Assembly: GCF_020164785.1 (NCBI RefSeq)
Contig: NZ_JAIUGX010000016.1
Location: forward strand, 1-64,000
Direction of reading: 5' to 3'
DNA from: Mesorhizobium sp. ES1-1
GTDB taxonomy: Bacteria > Pseudomonadota > Alphaproteobacteria > Rhizobiales > Rhizobiaceae
Length of the DNA stretch: 64,000 nt
Position numbers and translations under genes: made by a program
Shown here: one piece after another, positions 5,413 through 40,449 of the stretch
Layout of the letters: every line of letters begins with the position of its first letter
Position numbering within the stretch: the first letter of the stretch is position 1
Notes under the pieces: generated by a model
The model's database searches: none
What the model was told of the DNA's origin: nothing
The model's input: only the letters and a program-made list of their open reading frames with translations

Positions 5413-6051
5413 ATGACCAGCTTCCTCTTCGACGGTCCCGACACCGCACCCGCGACCATCCTGCTGGCGCATGGCGCCGGGGCGCCGATGGATTCGCCCT
5501 CGATGACCGCCGTTGCCAAGGCCCTGGCCGAAGCCGGAATGCGCGTGGCGCGGTTTGAATTCGGCTATATGGCGGCGCGCCGGCACGGTCAGCGCAAGCC
5601 GCCGCCGCGGGCGGAGACGGTCAACCCGGAATATGTCGAGGCGATCGCGGATTTGCGCGCCGGGGGCGTTGCCGGCAAGCTCATCATCGGCGGCAAGTCG
5701 ATGGGTGGGCGCGTGGCCTCGATGGTGGCCGACGAGATGTACGCCGCCGGCGAGATTTCGGGGCTGGTCTGCCTCGGCTACCCCTTTCACCCGCCCGGCA
5801 AGCCCCAGCAACTGCGGACGAAACATCTCGCCGGGCTGAAAACGCCGACGCTGATCTTCCAGGGCACGCGCGACGAGTTCGGCACGCGCGACGAGGTCAG
5901 CGGCTATACGCTGTCGGATGCGATCGAGGTGATCTGGCTGGAGGATGGCGACCACGACCTCAAGCCGCGCAAGAGCCTGTCGGGATTTTCGGCGGCCGAT
6001 CATTTGAAGCGGCTGGCGGAGGCGGTGAAGGGGTGGGTGGAGAGGATTTAG
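5413..6051 (+). CDS. Alpha/beta hydrolase (KANL3/Tex30-like)
   Basis: 212-residue alpha/beta hydrolase of the small dienelactone-hydrolase-like group. An N-terminal strand and oxyanion loop, LLAHGAGAPMDS, is followed by the nucleophile elbow GGKSMGGRVAS (serine in G-K-S-M-G), then FQGTRDEFGT with the likely acid aspartate, and a late DGDHDL with the likely catalytic histidine. Substrate unknown. The open frame extends upstream through the palindromic repeat, but the ATG at 5413, right after the repeat, fits the fold's first strand, so I start there. No export signal; probably cytoplasmic. Confidence 0.85.
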   Translation: MTSFLFDGPDTAPATILLAHGAGAPMDSPSMTAVAKALAEAGMRVARFEFGYMAARRHGQRKPPPRAETVNPEYVEAIADLRAGGVAGKLIIGGKSMGGRVASMVADEMYAAGEISGLVCLGYPFHPPGKPQQLRTKHLAGLKTPTLIFQGTRDEFGTRDEVSGYTLSDAIEVIWLEDGDHDLKPRKSLSGFSAADHLKRLAEAVKGWVERI

Positions 6052-6087
6052 GACGGGCGGTCGAGCATTCATTCGATGTTGGCGCCG

Positions 6088-6208
6088 CCCCTCACCCTTA
6101 CCCTCTGGCCGTGAAGAACGGGGAGAGGGGGGCGGCAGCGTTGAAGCTATTTCCTTCTCTCGGTTCTTATACGGGGAGAAGGTACCGGCAGGCGGATGAG
6201 GGGCAGCC
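6088..6208. repeat. Degenerate palindromic element
   Basis: A second repeat type: 'gcccctcaccctta...gaacggggagaggg' at the left and 'cttatacggggagaaggtaccggcaggcggatgaggggc' at the right, roughly inverted with imperfect arms. Related to the copies at 14257-14429 and 33361-33530. No gene is supported in 6052-6292. Confidence 0.6.
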
Positions 6209-6292
6209 CTGCCATTGGCCATTGGCCCATATCCGGCCGCGGCATTCAACCATTGCTTGCCCATCGCCGCTGCTTCCTGCTTCATGCTTCAA

Positions 6293-7063
6293 ATGAAAAT
6301 CGCCACCTTCAACGTCAACAACATCAACAGCCGGCTGACGAACCTGTTAGCATGGCTGGCGGCCGCGAAACCCGATGTCGTGTGCCTGCAGGAACTCAAG
6401 GCGCGCGACACGCAGTTTCCGCGCTCCGCTTTGGCCGATGCCGGCTATGGCGCGGTATGGAAGGGCCAGCCGACATGGAACGGCGTCGCCATCCTGGCGC
6501 GGGGCGCCGAGCCGGTGCTGACCCGCGACGTCCTGCCCGGCGATGATGCGGACAAGCAGAGCCGCTACATCGAGGCGGCGGTCAGCGGCGTGCTCATCGG
6601 CTGCCTGTATGCGCCGAACGGCAACCCGCAACCGGGGCCGAAATTCGCCTACAAGCTTGCCTGGCACGAGAGGCTGAACGCGCATGCCGAGCAATTGCTC
6701 GGCACCGGCGTGCCGGTTGTGCTGGCGGGCGACTACAATATCGTGCCCGAACCGCGCGACATCTACGCCACCCGCTCCTATGACGACAATGCGCTGGTGC
6801 AGCCGGAAAGCCGCGCCGCCTTCGCCGCGCTCATCGAGCAGGGCTGGCTCGACGCGCTACGCAAGAAACATCCGAAGGAGACGCTCTACACGTTCTGGGA
6901 CTATCGCCGGAACCGCTGGCCGCGCGACGCCGGGCTGCGCCTCGACCACATCCTGCTGTCGAAGAAACTGGTGCGCCGGCTGACCGCCGCCGGCATCGAC
7001 CGCGACGTGCGCGGCCAGGACGGCGCCAGCGACCACGCGCCGGTCTGGGTGGAACTCAAGTGA
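6293..7063 (+). CDS. xth: Exodeoxyribonuclease III (AP endonuclease family)
   Basis: 256-residue member of the Xth/AP endonuclease family, which cuts DNA 5' of abasic sites and removes 3' blocking groups in base excision repair. Visible motifs: MKIATFNVNNINSR with the metal-site asparagine, CLQELKA with the catalytic glutamate, the LYAPNGNP loop, GDYNIVPE with the catalytic aspartate and asparagine, LRLDHIL, and the terminal SDHAPV histidine. An earlier in-frame ATG adds about 26 unrelated residues, so I start at 6293. The next gene overlaps its stop (GTGA). Confidence 0.95.
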   Translation: MKIATFNVNNINSRLTNLLAWLAAAKPDVVCLQELKARDTQFPRSALADAGYGAVWKGQPTWNGVAILARGAEPVLTRDVLPGDDADKQSRYIEAAVSGVLIGCLYAPNGNPQPGPKFAYKLAWHERLNAHAEQLLGTGVPVVLAGDYNIVPEPRDIYATRSYDDNALVQPESRAAFAALIEQGWLDALRKKHPKETLYTFWDYRRNRWPRDAGLRLDHILLSKKLVRRLTAAGIDRDVRGQDGASDHAPVWVELK

Positions 7064-19887: not shown

Positions 19888-20227
19888 GCCGGTCCTCGGT
19901 GGTGTCGATGAGGCAGAGAGTTAGAAAAGGCCAGCGCCGGGCGAAACCCGTCGTCCAACCGGGCGGGTAAGCGCCCCGGCGGAGGCAGGGCGCGCCGCTG
20001 TGGGTTCATAGCGCGATTCGAGAAGCGTCGATAAGTCTCTGGTGTTGCTACGATATCGCGCTTTCTTGGCTGCGGGTCCAGCCATACGGGGAGAGGGCGG
20101 CCCTCGTAGGAACAGTACTGCTGTGGAGGAGATCGGCCCTCTGCGGCGCTGGTGCCTCTTCCTTTGCCGCCGTGCTTCGCGTATGGCGCCGGGCAGATCC
20201 TCTCATCCCAGTTTGGCCGGACACCGC
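19888..20227. other. Gene-free stretch upstream of the ABC-F gene
   Basis: About 340 bases between the start of the LysE gene (-) and the start of the ABC-F gene (+). It must hold both promoters. The ABC-F frame stays open back to 20042 but with no homology. I see several GC-rich short dyads (for example gccggg...ccccggc near 19935-19980) and no recognisable RNA gene. Confidence 0.5.
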
Positions 20228-21850
20228 ATGATCAGACTTGAAAGCATCAGCAAGCAGAACGGCCGCCAGCTCGTGTTCATCGAGGCGTCGGCGGCGCTGC
20301 AGAAGGGCGAGAAGATCGGTCTCGTCGGGCCGAACGGCGCCGGCAAGACGACGCTGTTTCGCATGATCACCGGGCAAGAGCAGCCCGACGAAGGCCAGGT
20401 GCAGGTCGATCGCGGTGTCACCATCGGCTATTTCAGCCAGGATGTCGGCGACATGGAAGGCCATAGCGCTGTCGCCGAAGTCATGAACGGCGCCGGGCCG
20501 GTGAGTGAGGTGGCAGCCGAGATGGCGGAACTGGAAGCGGCGATGGCCGATCCGGATCAAGCCGACCGGATGGATGAGATCATCGAGAAATATGGCGAGG
20601 CCCAGCACCGTTTCGAGGAACTGGACGGCTATGCGCTCGACGGCCGCGCGCGTGAGGTGCTGGACGGCCTCGGCTTCAGCCAGGAGATGATGGACGGCGA
20701 TGTCGGCAAGCTTTCCGGCGGCTGGAAGATGCGCGTGGCGCTGGCCCGGATCCTTCTGATGCGGCCCGACGTGATGCTGCTCGACGAACCTTCCAACCAT
20801 CTCGACCTTGAAAGCCTGATCTGGCTGGAATCCTTCCTCAAGGGCTATGATGGCGCGCTCCTGATGACCTCGCACGACCGCGAGTTCATGAACCGCATCG
20901 TCAACAAGATCGTCGAGATCGACGCCGGGTCGCTGACGGCCTATTCCGGCAATTACGAGTTCTACCAGCAGCAGCGGGCGATCGCCGACAAGCAGCAGCA
21001 GGCGCAGTTCGAGCGCCAGCAGGCTATGCTGGCCAAGGAGATCGCCTTCATCGAGCGGTTCAAGGCGCGCGCCTCGCATGCCGCCCAGGTGCAGAGCCGG
21101 GTCAAGAAGCTCGACAAGATCGACCGCGTCGAGCCGCCGAAGCGCCGGCAGACGGTAAGCTTCGACTTCCAGCCCGCGCCGCGCTGCGGCGAGGATGTCG
21201 TGACGCTGAAGAACGTGCACAAGGGCTATGGCAGCCGCACCATCTATGAGGGGCTGGATTTCCAGGTCCGCCGGCGCGAGCGCTGGTGCATCATGGGCGT
21301 CAACGGCGCCGGCAAGTCGACGCTGCTGAAGCTGGTTGCGGGGGCTTCCGAACCCGATACGGGCACGGTGGCGCGCGGCCCAAGCGTCAAGATGGGCTAT
21401 TTCGCCCAGCATGCGATGGAATTGCTGGAAGGCGAACGCACCGTGTTCCAGACGCTGGAAGACGCTTTCCCCCAGGCGGGGCAGGCGCCGCTGCGGGCCC
21501 TGGCCGGCTGCTTCGGCTTTTCCGGCGACGAAATCGAGAAGCGCTGCCGGGTGTTGTCAGGCGGCGAGAAGGCGCGGCTGGTCATGGCGCTTATGCTGTT
21601 CGACCCACCCAATCTGCTGGTGTTGGACGAGCCGACCAACCACCTCGACATCGCCACCAAGGAGATGCTGATCACGGCGCTTGCGCAGTATGAAGGCACA
21701 ATGCTGTTCGTCTCGCACGACCGCCATTTTCTCGCAGCACTCTCCAACCGCGTACTGGAACTGACGCCCGAGGGGATCCACACCTATGGCGGCGGCTATA
21801 CGGAATATGTCGAGCGGACCGGGCAGGAAGCGCCGGGGCTCAGGAGCTGA
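20228..21850 (+). CDS. ABC-F family ATPase
   Basis: 540 residues with two ABC cassettes and no membrane segments, the ABC-F layout of ribosome-associated factors. Cassette 1: GLVGPNGAGKTT (34-42), LSGGWKMRVALARILL, VMLLDEPSNHLD. A charged linker (QQAMLAKEIAFIERFKARAS) follows. Cassette 2: GVNGAGKSTLLKL, LSGGEKARLVMALML, LLVLDEPTNHLD. The first Walker B neighbour reads PSNH, as in some ABC-F proteins. Likely acts on translation; exact subfamily uncertain. Followed by three tandem hairpins. Confidence 0.93.
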   Translation: MIRLESISKQNGRQLVFIEASAALQKGEKIGLVGPNGAGKTTLFRMITGQEQPDEGQVQVDRGVTIGYFSQDVGDMEGHSAVAEVMNGAGPVSEVAAEMAELEAAMADPDQADRMDEIIEKYGEAQHRFEELDGYALDGRAREVLDGLGFSQEMMDGDVGKLSGGWKMRVALARILLMRPDVMLLDEPSNHLDLESLIWLESFLKGYDGALLMTSHDREFMNRIVNKIVEIDAGSLTAYSGNYEFYQQQRAIADKQQQAQFERQQAMLAKEIAFIERFKARASHAAQVQSRVKKLDKIDRVEPPKRRQTVSFDFQPAPRCGEDVVTLKNVHKGYGSRTIYEGLDFQVRRRERWCIMGVNGAGKSTLLKLVAGASEPDTGTVARGPSVKMGYFAQHAMELLEGERTVFQTLEDAFPQAGQAPLRALAGCFGFSGDEIEKRCRVLSGGEKARLVMALMLFDPPNLLVLDEPTNHLDIATKEMLITALAQYEGTMLFVSHDRHFLAALSNRVLELTPEGIHTYGGGYTEYVERTGQEAPGLRS

Positions 21851-32062: not shown

Positions 32063-32211
32063 TACCAGCCGGAGCACCGAAGCGCTCGCGTGCCGTCATG
32101 GGCGCGCGAGCGCTCGCGCCTCTGGGTGGGGGCGGCGCAGCCTTGAGTGCCGCCATTGACGGCACAGCTCATCCGGCCGATAGGTCCGCGCGAACAGCCC
32201 GAGACTGCACA

Positions 32212-33357
32212 ATGCCCGACCTCAAAGAAGCAACCGCCACCGCCGATGCCGCCTGGCAGAACGATGTCCGCCAGGGCGTGCGCCATGTGCGCGATCTCGA
32301 GCGCCTGCCGCTGTCGCCGGCCGAGCGGGCGGCGGCTCAGGCCGCTGCCGCCAACCACAAGGTGCGGGCGCCCAAGGCTTACCTCGACCTGATCGACTGG
32401 AACGACCCGGCCGACCCGATCCGCGCGCAGGTGATCCCGTCGCCCGGCGAACTCAAGCAGGCGGAAGGCGAGCTCGACGATCCCATCGCCGACCACGCGT
32501 TCAGCCCGGTGCCGCGCCTGACGCATCGCCATGCCGATCGTGTGCTTCTGTTCCCGACCTATCAATGCGCCGTCTATTGCCGCTTCTGCTTCCGCAAGGA
32601 ATCGCTGACTTCGATCGCCCGCGGCTACACGCGCGAGGCGCTGGAGCCGGCGCTGGCCTATATTTCGGCTCATCCGGAAATCCGCGAGGTGATCCTGACC
32701 GGCGGCGATCCGCTGTCGCTGCCCGACAAGGCGCTGGCCGAAATCGCCGGGCGCATCGAGGCGATCGCGCATGTGCGGCTGCTGCGAATCCACACCCGCG
32801 TGCCGGTGGCGCTGCCGTCGCGCATCACGCCTGGGCTGGTGGCCGCACTGCAAGGGCGGCTGATGGTCACCGTCGTCACGCATTTCAACCACGCGCGCGA
32901 GATCACCGACGCCACCGAAGCGGCCTGCCGGACGTTGCGGCTGGCGGGGTTCGTGCTGCTCAACCAGAGCGTTCTGCTCAAAGGCGTCAACGACAGCGTC
33001 GAGGTGCTGGAAGAGCTCTGCCGCGAGCTGATGTATCGCCTGGGCGTTAAACCCTATTACCTGCACCATGGCGATCTGGCGCGCGGCATGGCGCACCGCC
33101 GCACGACGATTGCCGAAGGCCAGGCGCTGGTGGAAGCGCTGCGCGCCCGCCTGTCGGGCATCTGCAATCCTGTCTATGTGCTCGACCTCCCGGAAGGCGG
33201 CGGCAAGGTGCCGATCGGGCCGTGTCATGTCGAGGTGCGGGACGGGCAGCGCTGGCGGCTGCGCGGGCTGGATGGGAAGGCGCGGGATTATGCGGAGGTG
33301 GTCGGCGAGGGGGAGGGCGCGGCCGTGAGCCGTAGCGACGCAAGTGGCGCAAGTTAG
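32212..33357 (+). CDS. Lysine 2,3-aminomutase-like radical SAM/PLP enzyme
   Basis: 381 residues. The radical-SAM cluster motif CAVYCRFCF (C119, C123, C126), the PLP lysine in GGGKVP (K332), and acidic residues D288 (HHGDLARG) and D325 (LDLPEGG), at the places that bind the side-chain amine of lysine in aminomutase, are all present. It could make beta-lysine or, like EpmB, a beta-lysine for modifying EF-P. No epmA or efp is nearby; instead a Pls-type NRPS and its PPTase lie within 6 kb, on the opposite strand. I start at ATG 32212. Confidence 0.9.
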   Translation: MPDLKEATATADAAWQNDVRQGVRHVRDLERLPLSPAERAAAQAAAANHKVRAPKAYLDLIDWNDPADPIRAQVIPSPGELKQAEGELDDPIADHAFSPVPRLTHRHADRVLLFPTYQCAVYCRFCFRKESLTSIARGYTREALEPALAYISAHPEIREVILTGGDPLSLPDKALAEIAGRIEAIAHVRLLRIHTRVPVALPSRITPGLVAALQGRLMVTVVTHFNHAREITDATEAACRTLRLAGFVLLNQSVLLKGVNDSVEVLEELCRELMYRLGVKPYYLHHGDLARGMAHRRTTIAEGQALVEALRARLSGICNPVYVLDLPEGGGKVPIGPCHVEVRDGQRWRLRGLDGKARDYAEVVGEGEGAAVSRSDASGAS

Positions 33358-33360
33358 CGC

Positions 33361-33530
33361 TGCCCCTCACCTGCCTGCCGGCATCCTCTCCCCGTATAGG
33401 ACGGGGAGAGGGGCGCTGTCATCGGCGATTTCGCCAATCTCCAAGGTTGCGGAAAGATCGTCAGCGTTGCGGCCAGCCCTCTCTCCCCGTCCTATACGGG
33501 GAGAGATGTCCGGCAGGACAGTGAGGGGCA
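33361..33530. repeat. Palindromic intergenic element (atacggggagagg type)
   Basis: Left arm about 33361-33411 (tgcccctcacctgcctgccgg, ctctccccgtataggacgg) and right arm about 33481-33530 (ccgtcctatacggggagag, ccggcaggacagtgagggg) are inverted. It separates the convergent aminomutase and PPTase genes. Same type as 14257-14429. Confidence 0.8.
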
Positions 33531-33586
33531 GCGCCGACGCGGGAGATTGGTGCGTTGCATCAGCGCGGGGCGATAATTGGTCGAGC

Positions 33587-34246
33587 CTAAACCTCAACTC
33601 CGCCGACAAACGCCAGGACGACGATGCGCGGAGCGGTGCAGTAGACAAGGCTGAGCTTGCGGCCGATCCTTGTCGTGGCGCGGCGCGCGTCGAGGTCAAC
33701 GGCGATATCCTCGTAGCCCAGCACCTGTCGGTCGAGCGGATAGACCGCCTTGTAGACAGCCTCCTTGGCGACGAAGAGGAGGCGGCCGGCGAGATGGAGA
33801 TCACTTCTGTCCATGCGGTCCGCGGACGTTGCGACGAGCGCGAAAATATCATCGGGCAAAGGCAGCGCCGGCTCGACGTCGATGCCCAGCGATATGATGT
33901 CTCCGACTTCGGCAAGTGCCGCCACTGCCATGTCGTCGTCATGGGCGAGCGAGCCGGTCATCCCGTCGGGCCAGACCGGCGCTCCCGACGGCGCGCGGGG
34001 GATCGGGTCGTGGATGCCGATATCCGCCAGCAGCCGGTGCGCGATCCACCGCGCGGCGCCGCTGGCTCGCCGCATGGCCGGCTGGCGGGCAGGGAGGGAG
34101 CGCGCCTCCTCCGGCAGCAGATGGGTCTCGTCACCGTCGCGTATCAGCCGGCATCCCGTGCGCACCCCATGTGGGGCGATGGCGGCCAGCGCCCGCGCCA
34201 GCGACATTTCCTCGGGCAAAACGGCCAGCGAAGTGATTGCCGTCAT
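33587..34246 (-). CDS. 4'-phosphopantetheinyl transferase (EntD/Sfp-like)
   Basis: 219 residues. Motifs of the superfamily: SLAHDDDMAVAALAE, LGIDVEP (metal aspartate and glutamate) and LLFVAKEAVYKAVYPL (conserved Lys-Glu-x-x-x-Lys). It loads the phosphopantetheine arm onto carrier proteins. It ends 82 bases... in effect directly downstream of the NRPS gene on the same strand, so NRPS and PPTase are likely one transcript and the PPTase probably activates that carrier domain. The ATG at 34246 has gggag upstream; ATG 34288 is possible. Confidence 0.9.
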   Translation of the reverse strand: MTAITSLAVLPEEMSLARALAAIAPHGVRTGCRLIRDGDETHLLPEEARSLPARQPAMRRASGAARWIAHRLLADIGIHDPIPRAPSGAPVWPDGMTGSLAHDDDMAVAALAEVGDIISLGIDVEPALPLPDDIFALVATSADRMDRSDLHLAGRLLFVAKEAVYKAVYPLDRQVLGYEDIAVDLDARRATTRIGRKLSLVYCTAPRIVVLAFVGGVEV

Positions 34247-34328
34247 GGTTCGGCTCCCGACGCCGGGCGGGACAAGATCGGCAATCATCTCTTCGCTCTC
34301 GTCCGGTCTTGATCGAGGGTCAATGGCG

Positions 34329-37300
34329 TCAGGACGACGCCCTGGAACCGTCGTCCATGATCGCCTCGACGAACCGATGCAGCTTGGCCGGGTTACCGCG
34401 CCAGATCGTGTCGGGCTCCAGGGTCTCGCCCTTCATGACGAAGGAATCGGCATCGACCATCGATCCCTTGCCCATGGTGACGCCGTAATGGACGAAGGCG
34501 GAGGGCCCTAGCGTACAGCCGTCGCCGATGCTGATATAATCCGACTTGAAGGCGCCTTCCTCCAGCGAATGGGCCTGGATGACGCAGCCCTCGTTGAGTG
34601 TGACATCGTCGCCGATCTCGACCAGCGAGCGCTCGGTCAAATTGGCGCCGCCGTCATAGACTCGTTTGCCGACCTTCACGCCGAGCAGGCGCAGGATCAT
34701 CGGCCGGAAGGGCGTGCCGCCAAACAGCCGCACGATGGGCGAGTCGGCGAGCTTCCAGTGGCGCTCATGGCGCCAGAAATCGACGTCGTAGATCGTCGTC
34801 ACCTGAGGCTTCAGCCTTCCGAAGCCGAGGCTTGCCCGCTCGACGAAGATGTAGAACGGGATGGTGATCGCCGACGTCAACAACACGGCGACGAAGAGGG
34901 CGATCTCGGCCCATTCGGTGTAATAGTTCAGCGCGCGGTCCCAGATCGCCAGGGTGGCGAACAGCATGATCCATTGCGTGGCCACGAACAGGAGGATCGT
35001 CACCAGATTGTGGCGGTTCTTGAACGGGATGCGCTTGCGCCGGTCGGCCTCGGCAACGCCCGCGATCAGCTCTTTATCGCGGTTCACCATGCGCGGGATT
35101 TCGAAGGAAGGCGACCCGAGCAGGCCGACATTCTCGCGCAGCGGCCCGTCGACCGGGATCATCACCTTTGTGCCGAGCAGGACGTTGTCGCCCGTGCGGC
35201 CATCCGGCGGGTAATAGATGTTGTTGCCGAGATAGTTGCGCTCGCCGATGCGGGTCGGCTCAAGCCTGAAGGCGGTGGCTGACTTGTGCATGTTGATCAT
35301 GAACAGCCCGTCCGACACCATGGTCTCGGTGCCGATCTCGCACAGCAGCGGGTTTTCGTGCTGCTGGTTGGAGCCGAAATTGGAGCCCGTCTGCACGACC
35401 TTGTTGAGGTTCCAGCCGATGGCCCGCATATAGTGGACAATGGCTGAGCTGTCGCCGAACAGCAGTCCCAGCATGCGGGAATTGCTGGAGAATTCGGACA
35501 CGGACTGCAGCCAGTAGCGGAAGCCGTAGAGCGTGTAGGTGCGGCCGGGTTTCAGGATCAGGCTGAACAGGCGCGGCACCAGGGTTGCGGCGAGGAAGGT
35601 CGCGCCGATGTAGCCGAAAAGCGTGACCGTGGTGCCGATGGCCACGAGGCCGATCGTCTCCTGGTAGTCGTCGCCGAGATTTTCCCAATAGGAGTGGAAC
35701 AGCAGCGGCAGCGGCGTGATGACCGCGAACAGCAGCAACAGCTGAACGGCTTCATAGAGGATGCGCCTGATCTCGTAGGGGTTTTCATTGCGCACCTTGC
35801 AATAGTCCGCCGTGGTCGGCACGGCCGGCGAGCCATGCCAGTGTTCGCCGTCCGGGATGCTTTGCCCGCGCTGCAGCGAGGATGAATGACCGAGCTGGCC
35901 GCCGTCGCCGATGGAGATGTCGATGTCGAGCGTGGAGCCGACGCCGACAAAGACATCGCGACCGATGGTCAGCGGCCCTGTGTGGATATAGCCGGCCTGC
36001 GCGCGATAGCCCAGGATCATGGATTCCTTGCGCAGGATGGTGTTGGCGCCGATCGAAATAAGATCGGTGCAGACGGGGATGGAACGCGACTCGATGACGG
36101 CGTTGTGGCCGAGCCTGGTGCCGAGCAGTCTGAGATAGAGGCTGTAGAGCGGGCTGCCCCGGAACAGAACGACGGGCGCGGTGCGGATCAGGGTCTTGAC
36201 GACCCAGAAGCGGTAGTAGCGCGGGCCCCAGATGGGGAAGGTCTCGGCCTTCCAGCGGCCGATGAGCACCCATTTGGCAAGGACGGCGAAGCCGGTCATG
36301 CCGAAGAAGACGCCGGCCGAGAGCGCGACGCACCTGAAGTAGAGCTGCAGCGGATCGTCGAGCGCCTCATACATCCAGTTGAGTCCGATGTTGAAGGCCC
36401 ACAGGCCGAGATAGCTGTAGACGCCGTAGAAGAGCAGCTGCGCGAGGCCGCAGGTCCAATAGGCGAAATCCGAGGCGCGGCGGGTGAGGACGGGCTCGTA
36501 GGTGGCCGTCGTCATGGCATCGGCGGTGCCCAGATGCGCGGCCAGGCGCGCCACGGTCGGGAAGAGGTAGATGTCGCGCATCGACGTCGTCGCCCATTCC
36601 TCACGGGTTCGCACCCGCGCGCAGAAATGAGCCATGAGAAGCGAGTTGGCGCCGAGATCGTCGAAGAAATTGTCCTCGACCGACACCTCCTCGAATTTCA
36701 GCACCTCGGCCAGCGCGCCGGCCAGGAAGCGCTCGTCATCGGTGCGGGGCACCACCATGGCGCGGTCGCCCGAAAGCCGGACGCTGGTCGGCTTTGGCAA
36801 TTGCCGAAGGTCGACCTTGTTGGAGACCGTCATTGGGATGCCGGGCAGTTCCTCCAGATAGGAAGGGACCATGTAGTCGGGCAGGCGCCGCTTCATCACC
36901 TTGGCGATTTCGGCGCGCGCGATCGCCGGCTGGCCTGATTTGGCGGCGTAATAGGCGACTAGTTCGACGCGGCCGGGCTCGATCTCCCAGGTGGTGACAG
37001 CGGCCTGCGCGATTTCGGGCTGGTCGAGCAGCACCGCCTCGATCTCGCCAAGCTCGATGCGATAGCCGCGGATCTTCACCTGCGTGTCGATGCGCCCGGC
37101 ATATTCGATCTCGCCGCTTTCGTTGATGCGGCCAAGGTCGCCGGTGCGGTAGATGCGCTTCGACGGATTGTTGGGCAGGCCGATGAAATCGGCGATGAAT
37201 TTCTGTTCCGTCAGGTCGGGCCGGTTGAGGTAGCCGACGGCCAGGCCGATGCCGGCAATGCCGATCTCGCCCAGTTCGCCGGGCGCGGCAAGCTGCGGCA

Positions 37301-38480
37301 GCGACGGGTCGAGAATGACGATGGAATAGGTGGGCAGCGGCGCGCCGATGGTCACCGGCCGGTCGGGCGACAGTTCGCCCATGGTTGCCGTAACCGTGGC
37401 TTCGGTCGGGCCATAGGTGTTGAGGATCTTGCGGCCGGGTCTCGACCAGCGCACGACCAGATTGTGCGGGCAGGCCTCGCCGCCGACCAGCAGCGTGCGC
37501 AGGCTGGGCACGTCCGACGTCATCGATGACAGCAGGGTCGGACTGCAGGCCATGCAGGTGATGGCGTGCTGGCGCAGGAAATCCGCGAGCTCCTCGCCGA
37601 CGAGGGGGAGTTGGCCGGGCGCCGGCACCACGGTCGCGCCGGCCACGAACGGCACCCAGATCTCCTCGGAGGAAAAGTCGAAGGCGATGGTCATGCCCTG
37701 GTAGACGCGATCGCAGGGTTGGTAGCCGTAGGAGGCGGCGGCGACCCGGATGAAGTTGACGAAGCTCTGGTGGCGGACGGCGACGCCCTTCGGCCTGCCC
37801 GTCGTGCCCGAGGTGTAGAGGATGTAGCAGATGTCGTCGGCGGCGCCCGGCGCCTTGTGCGGCTTGAGCGGCGCGTCTGACTGGGCGGAAATCTCGGCAG
37901 CGGCGCTGTCGATGAGCAGATGCGGCACCGCCAGCTGGCCGGCGCGCGAGGCGTAGGCGGCGATGGTGACGATCATGCTGACGCCGGCGTCGTCGATGAT
38001 CAGCTCCATGCGCTCGCGCGGGAAGGCGGTGGCCAGCGGCACGAAGGCAGCGCCCGCCTTGATGACGCCGAGAAGGGCGACATAGGTTTCCGCCGAACGG
38101 TCGAGGATGAGCCCGACGCAGTGGCCCGGCCGCACGCCGCGCTTGCCGAGCAGGCGGGCGAACTGGTTGGCGCGCCTGTCGAGCTCCTGATAGGTCCAGG
38201 CGCGCCCCTCGGAAATCACCGCGGGAAGAGCGGCAAATGTGTGGGCGAGCTGTTCGAAGACCTTGTCGAGCCGTTCCTCGGGCCGGCCGGCGCGGGGGAA
38301 GTCTGCCCCGGTCAGCACCTGGCCCTGCGCGGCGAGCGAACGCCGGGCGCTTTTCATGAGCGTGTCCACACCCGGCAAACCATTTGCGACCAGGCCATTT
38401 CCTCCCAGCCCGGTTTCGGGCTCTGCGCTCGGCCCTGCCGTGTCCCGCTCGAGTGCGGCGATATCGACACCGTGATCCAT
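34329..38480 (-). CDS. Pls/PosA-type membrane NRPS
   Basis: 1383 residues. An adenylation domain (about 50-560: YILYTSGTTGRPKGVA, FDFSSEEIW, NTYGPTEATV, YRTGDLGRI, and the A10 lysine in SNKVDL) is followed by a carrier domain with LGANSLLM (phosphopantetheine serine S613). Then about six membrane segments alternate with two left-handed beta-helix/hexapeptide-repeat regions, the terminal domain of Pls-like enzymes. Such proteins (for example epsilon-poly-lysine synthetase) condense one activated amino acid without a classical condensation or thioesterase domain. Membrane-bound. The substrate here cannot be read reliably. I prefer ATG 38480 over TTG 38486. Confidence 0.93.
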   Translation of the reverse strand: MDHGVDIAALERDTAGPSAEPETGLGGNGLVANGLPGVDTLMKSARRSLAAQGQVLTGADFPRAGRPEERLDKVFEQLAHTFAALPAVISEGRAWTYQELDRRANQFARLLGKRGVRPGHCVGLILDRSAETYVALLGVIKAGAAFVPLATAFPRERMELIIDDAGVSMIVTIAAYASRAGQLAVPHLLIDSAAAEISAQSDAPLKPHKAPGAADDICYILYTSGTTGRPKGVAVRHQSFVNFIRVAAASYGYQPCDRVYQGMTIAFDFSSEEIWVPFVAGATVVPAPGQLPLVGEELADFLRQHAITCMACSPTLLSSMTSDVPSLRTLLVGGEACPHNLVVRWSRPGRKILNTYGPTEATVTATMGELSPDRPVTIGAPLPTYSIVILDPSLPQLAAPGELGEIGIAGIGLAVGYLNRPDLTEQKFIADFIGLPNNPSKRIYRTGDLGRINESGEIEYAGRIDTQVKIRGYRIELGEIEAVLLDQPEIAQAAVTTWEIEPGRVELVAYYAAKSGQPAIARAEIAKVMKRRLPDYMVPSYLEELPGIPMTVSNKVDLRQLPKPTSVRLSGDRAMVVPRTDDERFLAGALAEVLKFEEVSVEDNFFDDLGANSLLMAHFCARVRTREEWATTSMRDIYLFPTVARLAAHLGTADAMTTATYEPVLTRRASDFAYWTCGLAQLLFYGVYSYLGLWAFNIGLNWMYEALDDPLQLYFRCVALSAGVFFGMTGFAVLAKWVLIGRWKAETFPIWGPRYYRFWVVKTLIRTAPVVLFRGSPLYSLYLRLLGTRLGHNAVIESRSIPVCTDLISIGANTILRKESMILGYRAQAGYIHTGPLTIGRDVFVGVGSTLDIDISIGDGGQLGHSSSLQRGQSIPDGEHWHGSPAVPTTADYCKVRNENPYEIRRILYEAVQLLLLFAVITPLPLLFHSYWENLGDDYQETIGLVAIGTTVTLFGYIGATFLAATLVPRLFSLILKPGRTYTLYGFRYWLQSVSEFSSNSRMLGLLFGDSSAIVHYMRAIGWNLNKVVQTGSNFGSNQQHENPLLCEIGTETMVSDGLFMINMHKSATAFRLEPTRIGERNYLGNNIYYPPDGRTGDNVLLGTKVMIPVDGPLRENVGLLGSPSFEIPRMVNRDKELIAGVAEADRRKRIPFKNRHNLVTILLFVATQWIMLFATLAIWDRALNYYTEWAEIALFVAVLLTSAITIPFYIFVERASLGFGRLKPQVTTIYDVDFWRHERHWKLADSPIVRLFGGTPFRPMILRLLGVKVGKRVYDGGANLTERSLVEIGDDVTLNEGCVIQAHSLEEGAFKSDYISIGDGCTLGPSAFVHYGVTMGKGSMVDADSFVMKGETLEPDTIWRGNPAKLHRFVEAIMDDGSRASS

Positions 38481-38486
38481 GTGCAA

Positions 38487-39477: not shown

Positions 39478-40449
39478 ATGTTCAGCATGACACGCCGCAC
39501 AGTGCTTCAATCTGCGGCGGCCGCCGCCGCCCTCGGCCTTGCCGGCAAGCTTGAATTCACCCGGCCCGCTTTCGCGCAGACGCCGCTCGAACCGTCCGTC
39601 GGCTTCTACAAGTACACAGTCGGCGACATCGAGGTGACCGCCATCTATGACGGCATCTGGAAGAAGCCGCACGACCCGGCCTTCATCGCCAACGCCTCGG
39701 TCGAGGACACCAAGGCGGCACTCGCCAAGGCGGGGCTGACCACCGACTTCATGCCGATCCCGCTCACCGTTGTCGTGCTCAAGATGAACGGCAAGCTGAT
39801 CATGATGGATGCCGGCTCGGGCGTCGGCCAGTGGCAGACCAACGCCACGCACCTGCCGGCCAATATGGCCGCCGCCGGCATCGACTACAAGGCGATCGAC
39901 ACCATCATGATCTCCCATTTCCACCCCGACCATGTCTGGGGCCTGATGGAAAAGGGGAGCAACGCGCCGGTGTTCCCCAATGCCGAGCTGATCGTCAACG
40001 CGACCGAGTATAAATGGTGGACCGATCCCGGCCGGCTGGCCAAGCTGCCGGAAGGCCGCAAGCCGGCGGGCAAGCGCATCGCCGACAATTTCCCCAAATG
40101 GAAGAACTGGAAACTGGTGCAGGACGGCGACGAGGTGGCGCCCGGCATGCAGATCATCGCGGCGCCCGGCCACACGCCAGGCCATTCCGTGTACCTCGCC
40201 AATTCCGGCAAGGAACAGCTGATGATCTCGGCAGACACCATGTATGTGCCGGCGTTGCTGGCGCCGCATCCGGAATGGCGGGGCAGCTACGACCAGGATG
40301 GGCCGACGGCGATCGCCACGCGCCACAAGATCATCGACCGGGTGATCGCCGACAATATCCGCATTTCCGGATCGCACTTCCCGTTCCCGGGCACCGGCGT
40401 CTTCGTCAAAGACGGCAATGCCTACGGCTTCACACCAGTTCAGATTTGA
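39478..40449 (+). CDS. Tat-exported MBL-fold metallo-hydrolase
   Basis: 323 residues. Twin-arginine signal MTRRTVLQSAAAAAALGLAG, cleavage near AFAQT. Metallo-beta-lactamase fold with HFHPDH (147-152), the GHTPGH histidine, and late SADT and SGSHFPFP ligands for a binuclear metal site. Similar to lactonase/quorum-quenching or glyoxalase II-like MBL proteins; the substrate is not determined. Periplasmic. It sits on its own after the DUF680 terminator. Confidence 0.9.
   Translation: MFSMTRRTVLQSAAAAAALGLAGKLEFTRPAFAQTPLEPSVGFYKYTVGDIEVTAIYDGIWKKPHDPAFIANASVEDTKAALAKAGLTTDFMPIPLTVVVLKMNGKLIMMDAGSGVGQWQTNATHLPANMAAAGIDYKAIDTIMISHFHPDHVWGLMEKGSNAPVFPNAELIVNATEYKWWTDPGRLAKLPEGRKPAGKRIADNFPKWKNWKLVQDGDEVAPGMQIIAAPGHTPGHSVYLANSGKEQLMISADTMYVPALLAPHPEWRGSYDQDGPTAIATRHKIIDRVIADNIRISGSHFPFPGTGVFVKDGNAYGFTPVQI

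Follow-up and report, generated by a model that had tools for sequence, protein, structure and literature searches.

Do a polymer-forming synthetase and a lysine aminomutase that are encoded side by side belong to one pathway? The question is raised by a locus of Mesorhizobium sp. ES1-1, in the first 64,000 nucleotides of contig NZ_JAIUGX010000016.1 (the whole of this stretch is called the window below; the genome assembly is of 5.25 Mb in 23 contigs). On the minus strand the locus holds an open reading frame for a non-ribosomal peptide synthetase (NRPS) of 1385 amino acids (34329-38486) and a gene for a 4'-phosphopantetheinyl transferase (PPTase; 33587-34288, recognized by the 4PPT_N and ACPS profiles). 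Convergent with the latter, across a gap of 229 bases, lies a plus-strand gene, kamA (32098-33357), which profiles, tree and synteny characterize as encoding an EpmB-like, KamA-family radical S-adenosylmethionine (SAM) aminomutase. The original prediction, made from the sequence alone, had joined these genes into a possible pathway to poly-lysine, poly-beta-lysine or a related polymer; it had also warned that the convergent orientation weakens the link and that the aminomutase might act on elongation factor P (EF-P), a caution which proved well placed. We conclude, with a probability of about 0.68, that two unrelated functions stand side by side, a synthetase for a polymer of a short diamino acid and an EF-P-type aminomutase. 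Substrate, product, the role of an acetyltransferase found in relatives and EF-P modification are inferred here from domain architecture, pocket residues, synteny, trees and gene co-occurrence.

Profile searches found AMP-binding, AMP-binding_C, PP-binding and TIGR02353 NRPS_term_dom domains in the NRPS, with the hexapeptide repeats terminal. The adenylation domain spans residues 78-557, the carrier domain residues 587-652 (LGANSL at 611) and the membrane/beta-helix polymerising domain residues 678-1367. Over these last residues TIGR02353 ('Pls/PosA family') matches at 934.1 bits against a cut-off of 423.1, so that a match over cut-off downstream of adenylation and carrier domains, by which we recognize the family, is present. 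The Pls/PosA family is characterised by six transmembrane helices in three pairs; for the C-terminal part of the window NRPS a hydropathy plot shows six strong segments, two of which overlap. When the polymerising-domain profile was compared with sequences of solved structures, hexapeptide-repeat parts were covered (among the matches listed, 60 of 99). A PPTase homologue lies 3' of the NRPS in all 20 fetched Mesorhizobium loci; that of the window presumably serves the carrier domain. Judged by sequence, the pair is a Pls-type homopolymer synthetase with its own PPTase; the description of a membrane NRPS with single adenylation and carrier domains and Pls-style modules, followed by a same-strand PPTase, is thus borne out by open reading frames and profiles.

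Which monomer would such an enzyme use? Its adenylation pocket reads DFEALGTVT, plus the Lys of SNKVD. Pocket positions were taken from GrsA-PheA motif positions and checked by recovering published codes with the same script: a Rhizobium enzyme (L119; L-numbers denote loci fetched and G-numbers genomes compared) gave DLEDIGTVVK, which fits the rhizobial code DLEDIGTV[TVI]K printed in PMC10522769, and the NRPS of G038 gave DGESVSVVN, one residue off the published poly-beta-lysine code DGESISVVNK (PMC10522769, a source represented here and below by excerpts). Within Mesorhizobium, 21 NRPS-bearing genomes (the window's and 20 others) were compared with 16 NRPS-less ones. The window shares exactly this code with 19 of the 20 others that bear the NRPS, the remaining one (G005) being unread because of a frame break; those loci of the wider rhizobial clade that could be read have DFEA[LM]G[TS]VT. 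According to the excerpts of PMC10522769, an Asp at pocket position 1 and a Glu at position 3 serve the diamino acid, and position 2 is tied to substrate length: lysine enzymes have Ala there, PosA (ornithine; code DMEHNGTVSK) has Met, the poly-2,3-diaminopropionate (PDAP) synthetase has Phe and the beta-lysine code has Gly. The window NRPS has the Asp and the Glu, but at position 2 it carries Phe and neither the Ala nor the Gly of lysine and beta-lysine synthetases, so that lysine or beta-lysine as the monomer is not borne out. From these residues the predicted substrate is a short diamino acid; 2,4-diaminobutyrate (DAB), not lysine, is the most likely one, with ornithine or 2,3-diaminopropionate possible. 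DAB is placed first because of the Phe at position 2 and because relatives just outside the rhizobial clade are linked to DAB transaminase (DAT) genes.

This linkage was found in 89 related loci, drawn from 9 of 1063 matching plasmid records and the best 80 of a capped genome scan; some of them end early at contig ends, and at least L122, L127 and L128 come from the same genomes as G018, G014 and G022. A DAT homologue adjoins the NRPS, within ~1.3 kb, in 11 of the 89; these genes are 38-63% identical to a Skermanella DAT gene or are that gene itself, and all 9 of the 11 that were scanned pass TIGR00709 (two matches at 26% identity were excluded, one of which, in L135, fails the cut-off). In G054 a DAT gene, cut by the contig end, also stands beside the NRPS. 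In a quick tree of 31 rows, which carries a long-branch warning for its outgroup, DAT-linked NRPSs form the sister group of the rhizobial clade and are present outside that pair as well. The DAT gene expected as companion of a poly-DAB synthetase, linked in these neighbouring clades, is seen neither beside the window NRPS nor, over cut-off, in its genome (best match 260 bits versus 401.6).

Two other monomers have to be weighed at this point. That the NRPS is a PosA-like maker of poly-ornithine using the cell's normal ornithine would explain the missing dedicated monomer gene, neither DAT nor SbnB being over cut-off in the genome (best SbnB match 129 bits versus 326.9; SbnA was not searched in the genus). 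Pocket residues 301 and 322 (Gly, Thr) are moreover those of PosA, with Thr for Ser at 331, as against Ser and Val or Ser and Ala in DAT-linked enzymes. Since Phe replaces Met at position 2 and the nearest relatives outside the clade are DAT-linked, we nevertheless regard poly-ornithine as unlikely. Poly-2,3-diaminopropionate appears quite unlikely: the excerpts of PMC10522769 do give Phe as residue 2 of the PDAP synthetase pocket, and ornithine-cyclodeaminase-like matches below cut-off are present in the genome, but no SbnB homologue was found in the rhizobial-clade loci fetched, and in the 21 of 89 related loci that do bear one (19 Streptomyces, 2 Pseudonocardia) the window NRPS matches the terminal part only, in a differently built branch. 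Among side observations on monomer supply, L238 (G047, contig C96, 9101-13641) encodes an NRPS terminal-domain protein that has no adenylation domain; its neighbour is an SbnB-type gene that exceeds the cut-off, and from its gene content the locus is a candidate diaminopropionate system. In L135 (Rhizobium lusitanum) and L138 (Rhizobium sp. ASV8) a class-III aminotransferase gene (~5426-6643) immediately precedes the NRPS on its strand and might be an alternative monomer supplier, the L135 protein being below the DAT cut-off.

With DAB as the preferred substrate, the window NRPS is best viewed as a new rhizobial member of the known Pls/PosA enzyme family with a predicted non-lysine substrate. 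No paper on a rhizobial product was found among the open-licence literature matches listed; PMC10522769 does, in the excerpts, mention rhizobial codes.

The rhizobial module also has a variable part. Between the NRPS and PPTase frames of the window there are 40 bases; in the 20 other NRPS-bearing Mesorhizobium genomes the equivalent junction (34250-34330, minus strand) is filled by a gene of ~440 bp for a GNAT acetyltransferase. These genes have 63% or more identity with the copy in G022, and no match was found in the 16 NRPS-less Mesorhizobium genomes or in the window's genome. In its first codons (MIADLVPPGVGSR) the PPTase frame is similar to the end of GNAT (MIADLVLPAGGR in G022), with EEMIADLV as the apparent 3' remnant. 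Taken alone, this resemblance barely exceeds that of shuffled sequences (a score of 15 against a maximum of 14 in 300 shuffles), and the argument draws on the position and on the like tail found in the 6 genomes compared. The strain has apparently lost the GNAT gene by deletion, only the tail remaining, with an assembly fault as the alternative. Because the first ~14 codons of the PPTase frame resemble the GNAT tail of relatives, the true start of the PPTase is probably a downstream ATG. Among 39 loci whose NRPS is at least 55% identical to the window's, GNAT is present in 31, PPTase in 35 and both in 27; the 8 GNAT-less loci belong to Shinella, Rhizobium and Xaviernesmea, so that within the wider clade this strain is not alone in lacking the gene. 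For the acetyltransferases no family closer than the GNAT fold was found; identification as the DAB acetyltransferase EctA was considered and is not claimed (best of six 26.5 bits versus a cut-off of 120.6). A more speculative and less probable reading is that the NRPS-GNAT-PPTase module of Mesorhizobium, the Brucella group, Aureimonas and a Phyllobacterium makes an undescribed short polymer of a diamino acid, N-acetylated on the monomer or on the chain, in which case the window's strain would make an unacetylated form.

Is the aminomutase gene part of this module? In 12 of the 21 NRPS-bearing genomes, the window's included, kamA lies beside the NRPS, and in 8 it lies elsewhere. In 11 of the 20 others it is within ~2 kb of the PPTase gene that follows an NRPS 84-88% identical to the window's; this recurrence means that the arrangement in the window is not due to chance. 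However, the surroundings of kamA are retained without the NRPS. In the NRPS-less G035 the left marker (in the window a plus-strand gene at 20042-21850, of conserved position), kamA, the gene of a metallo-beta-lactamase-fold, AidB-lactonase-like protein below the family cut-off (39478-40449, plus strand, the other conserved flank) and the following genes stand in the same order, and the NRPS-less G016 and G020 have the same flanks with fewer markers. The presence of kamA does not follow the NRPS either, as it was found in 20 of 21 NRPS-bearing and 13 of 16 NRPS-less genomes (Fisher P = 0.30); the one NRPS-bearing genome where neither kamA nor epmA was found is G005, whose NRPS (L091, 8379-12364) has its frame break in or after the adenylation domain and is either a decaying gene or a sequencing error. 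In the set of 89 loci, kamA is near the NRPS in 8, all titled Mesorhizobium, and 81 have no kamA match. Because flanks and presence of kamA are independent of the NRPS, kamA would have been in place already and the NRPS module gained, lost or moved next to it, and the link between aminomutase and NRPS appears to be only positional.

The aminomutase itself passes the KamA-family model TIGR00238 (277.7 bits versus 199.2), and an alignment to Clostridium subterminale lysine 2,3-aminomutase (LAM; 2A5H) shows that it keeps the Cx3Cx2C motif and the counterparts of Arg134, Asp293, Asp330 and Lys337, which we take to be pyridoxal phosphate (PLP) and substrate residues; the nearby opposite-strand radical SAM gene with lysine-binding acidic residues had thus been correctly described. 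It is the only KamA copy found in the genome. Elsewhere in the genome lie an epmA whose product passes TIGR00462 (384.9 versus 286.9 bits) and two genes for EF-P with PGKG loops, one of which is divergent from this epmA. In a sample of 190 genomes of the class, KamA was found in 65, EpmA in 68 (20 of 88 genomes with lysyl-tRNA-synthetase-like matches only having been set aside) and both in 59 (Fisher P ~3e-32, uncorrected for kinship), and 20 KamA loci are within 1.5 kb of epmA. In a carefully built tree of 67 rows, the 21 epmA-adjacent rows are all found on the same side of a branch supported at 100/98, 11 Mesorhizobium rows join the epmA-adjacent clade (98/94) with Escherichia coli EpmB next, and 15 LAM-like rows are separate (99/85), in agreement with the published split of YjeK from LAM (PMC2821294, as excerpted). 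The aminomutase thus co-occurs with EpmA and a PGKG-type EF-P and, with caution as to long branches, groups with EpmA-linked homologues apart from LAM, as an EpmB would. A truncated LAM C-terminus was dropped as a hallmark of EpmB, as it did not discriminate on the set of frames compared. Most likely the aminomutase serves EF-P beta-lysylation as the counterpart of EpmB.

It could instead be an AblA-type LAM of lysine catabolism that has nothing to do with either EF-P or the NRPS. In favour of this, the AblA model TIGR03820 scores higher (310.2 bits) than the EpmB model TIGR03821 (273.3 bits), and the active-site residues are conserved. Both scores are however below cut-off (525.4 and 369.3), the tree puts the aminomutase with epmA-linked homologues, and its best model is TIGR03822 (355.6 bits versus a cut-off of 396.25), which both epmA-adjacent genes scanned pass. 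Catabolic LAM activity is accordingly rated as doubtful.

These results also bear on the proposal that the aminomutase supplies beta-lysine, or that lysine is used directly, for an NRPS making poly-beta-lysine or epsilon-poly-lysine. The spacing of 229 bases, the adjacency in 12 of 21 genomes and the conserved lysine-binding residues favour it. With Phe in the pocket, kamA flanks retained without the NRPS, 81 of 89 related loci lacking a kamA match (in a best-first set with some loci ending at contig ends) and the aminomutase grouping with epmA-linked genes and standing apart both from LAM and from its homologue beside the beta-lysine-type NRPS of G038, we hold it to be very improbable; neither synteny, nor tree, nor distribution makes the aminomutase part of a polymer pathway. 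The original prediction had named, as grounds for giving it up, a sole aminomutase grouping with EpmB or a pocket for a substrate other than lysine; since the single copy groups on the EpmB side and the pocket points away from lysine, essentially both are found.

A better poly-beta-lysine candidate, by its sequence, is the locus of G038, from another family of the order. There (L240, contig C279, 6348-12912) the NRPS with the code DGESVSVVN is divergent from a KamA-family gene, whose frame overlaps the PPTase frame. This aminomutase shares 35% identity with the window's; its place in the 67-row tree, on a long branch, is on the LAM-like side, and it scores 266.8 with the AblA model, below the cut-off of 525.4.

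The following mechanism is proposed for the window. The PPTase would arm the carrier domain, the adenylation domain would activate a short diamino acid, most likely DAB, and the membrane domain, by analogy with Pls and PosA, would polymerise it through side-chain isopeptide bonds. The product would be an accessory cationic homo-poly(amino acid), most likely poly-diaminobutyrate; GNAT, present in the module of many relatives and seemingly lost here, may acetylate monomer or product. Independently, the aminomutase, widespread in the genus, would make beta-lysine for EF-P together with the EpmA encoded elsewhere.

Several observations weigh against this two-function reading. Adjacency in 12 of 21 genomes can be read as linkage, and G005 is weak evidence for independence because its NRPS is frame-broken. 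The scores with TIGR03822 and the EpmB model are below cut-off; the branch of the aminomutase is long and that of E. coli EpmB very long (G038 and G004b are further long branches). In three Mesorhizobium genomes (G006, G013 and G024) EpmA is present and no KamA match was found, possibly reflecting EF-P lysylation without the aminomutase or assembly gaps. As to the substrate, residues 301 and 322 are those of PosA, DAT and SbnB are not over cut-off in the genome, and within the genus the presence of a DAT over cut-off does not follow that of the NRPS (11 of 21 NRPS-bearing versus 10 of 16 NRPS-less genomes).

Among antimicrobial polymers are the cationic homo-poly(amino acids). With a code of its own, a PPTase and often an acetyltransferase, the conserved rhizobial branch would be a candidate source of such polymers in plant-associated bacteria; before PosA, according to an excerpt of PMC10522769 (2023), those of bacteria had been identified from Actinomycetes only. 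The locus further illustrates that gene adjacency alone can suggest a pathway unsupported by synteny and trees, and the comparison has yielded, in G038, a stronger poly-beta-lysine candidate within the same order.

Among known systems, the delta-poly-L-ornithine synthetase PosA of Acinetobacter baumannii has in common with the window NRPS the adenylation-carrier-membrane layout, the Asp/Glu pair, Gly301 and Thr322, whereas the window enzyme has Phe for Met at position 2 and Ala-Leu for His-Asn at 278/299, and is adjoined by a PPTase gene, posA being described as a single-gene operon (PMC10522769, excerpts). The actinomycete PDAP enzyme likewise has Phe at position 2 (same excerpts). The poly-DAP and poly-DAB synthetases of actinomycetes are comparable in that clade neighbours of the window NRPS carry DAT genes; they differ in that no monomer-synthesis gene was seen beside the rhizobial NRPS. 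Pls, the epsilon-poly-L-lysine synthetase, shares family and domain layout (TIGR02353) but differs in code, the lysine enzymes having Ala at position 2 in the PMC10522769 excerpts. The aminomutase has its radical SAM, PLP and substrate residues in common with the C. subterminale LAM, from which it is separated in the tree. Although it scores below the curated cut-offs of EpmB (YjeK) and the alphaproteobacterial TIGR03822 aminomutases and is encoded away from epmA and efp, it shares with them family, catalytic residues, a tree position with epmA-linked genes and co-occurrence with EpmA.

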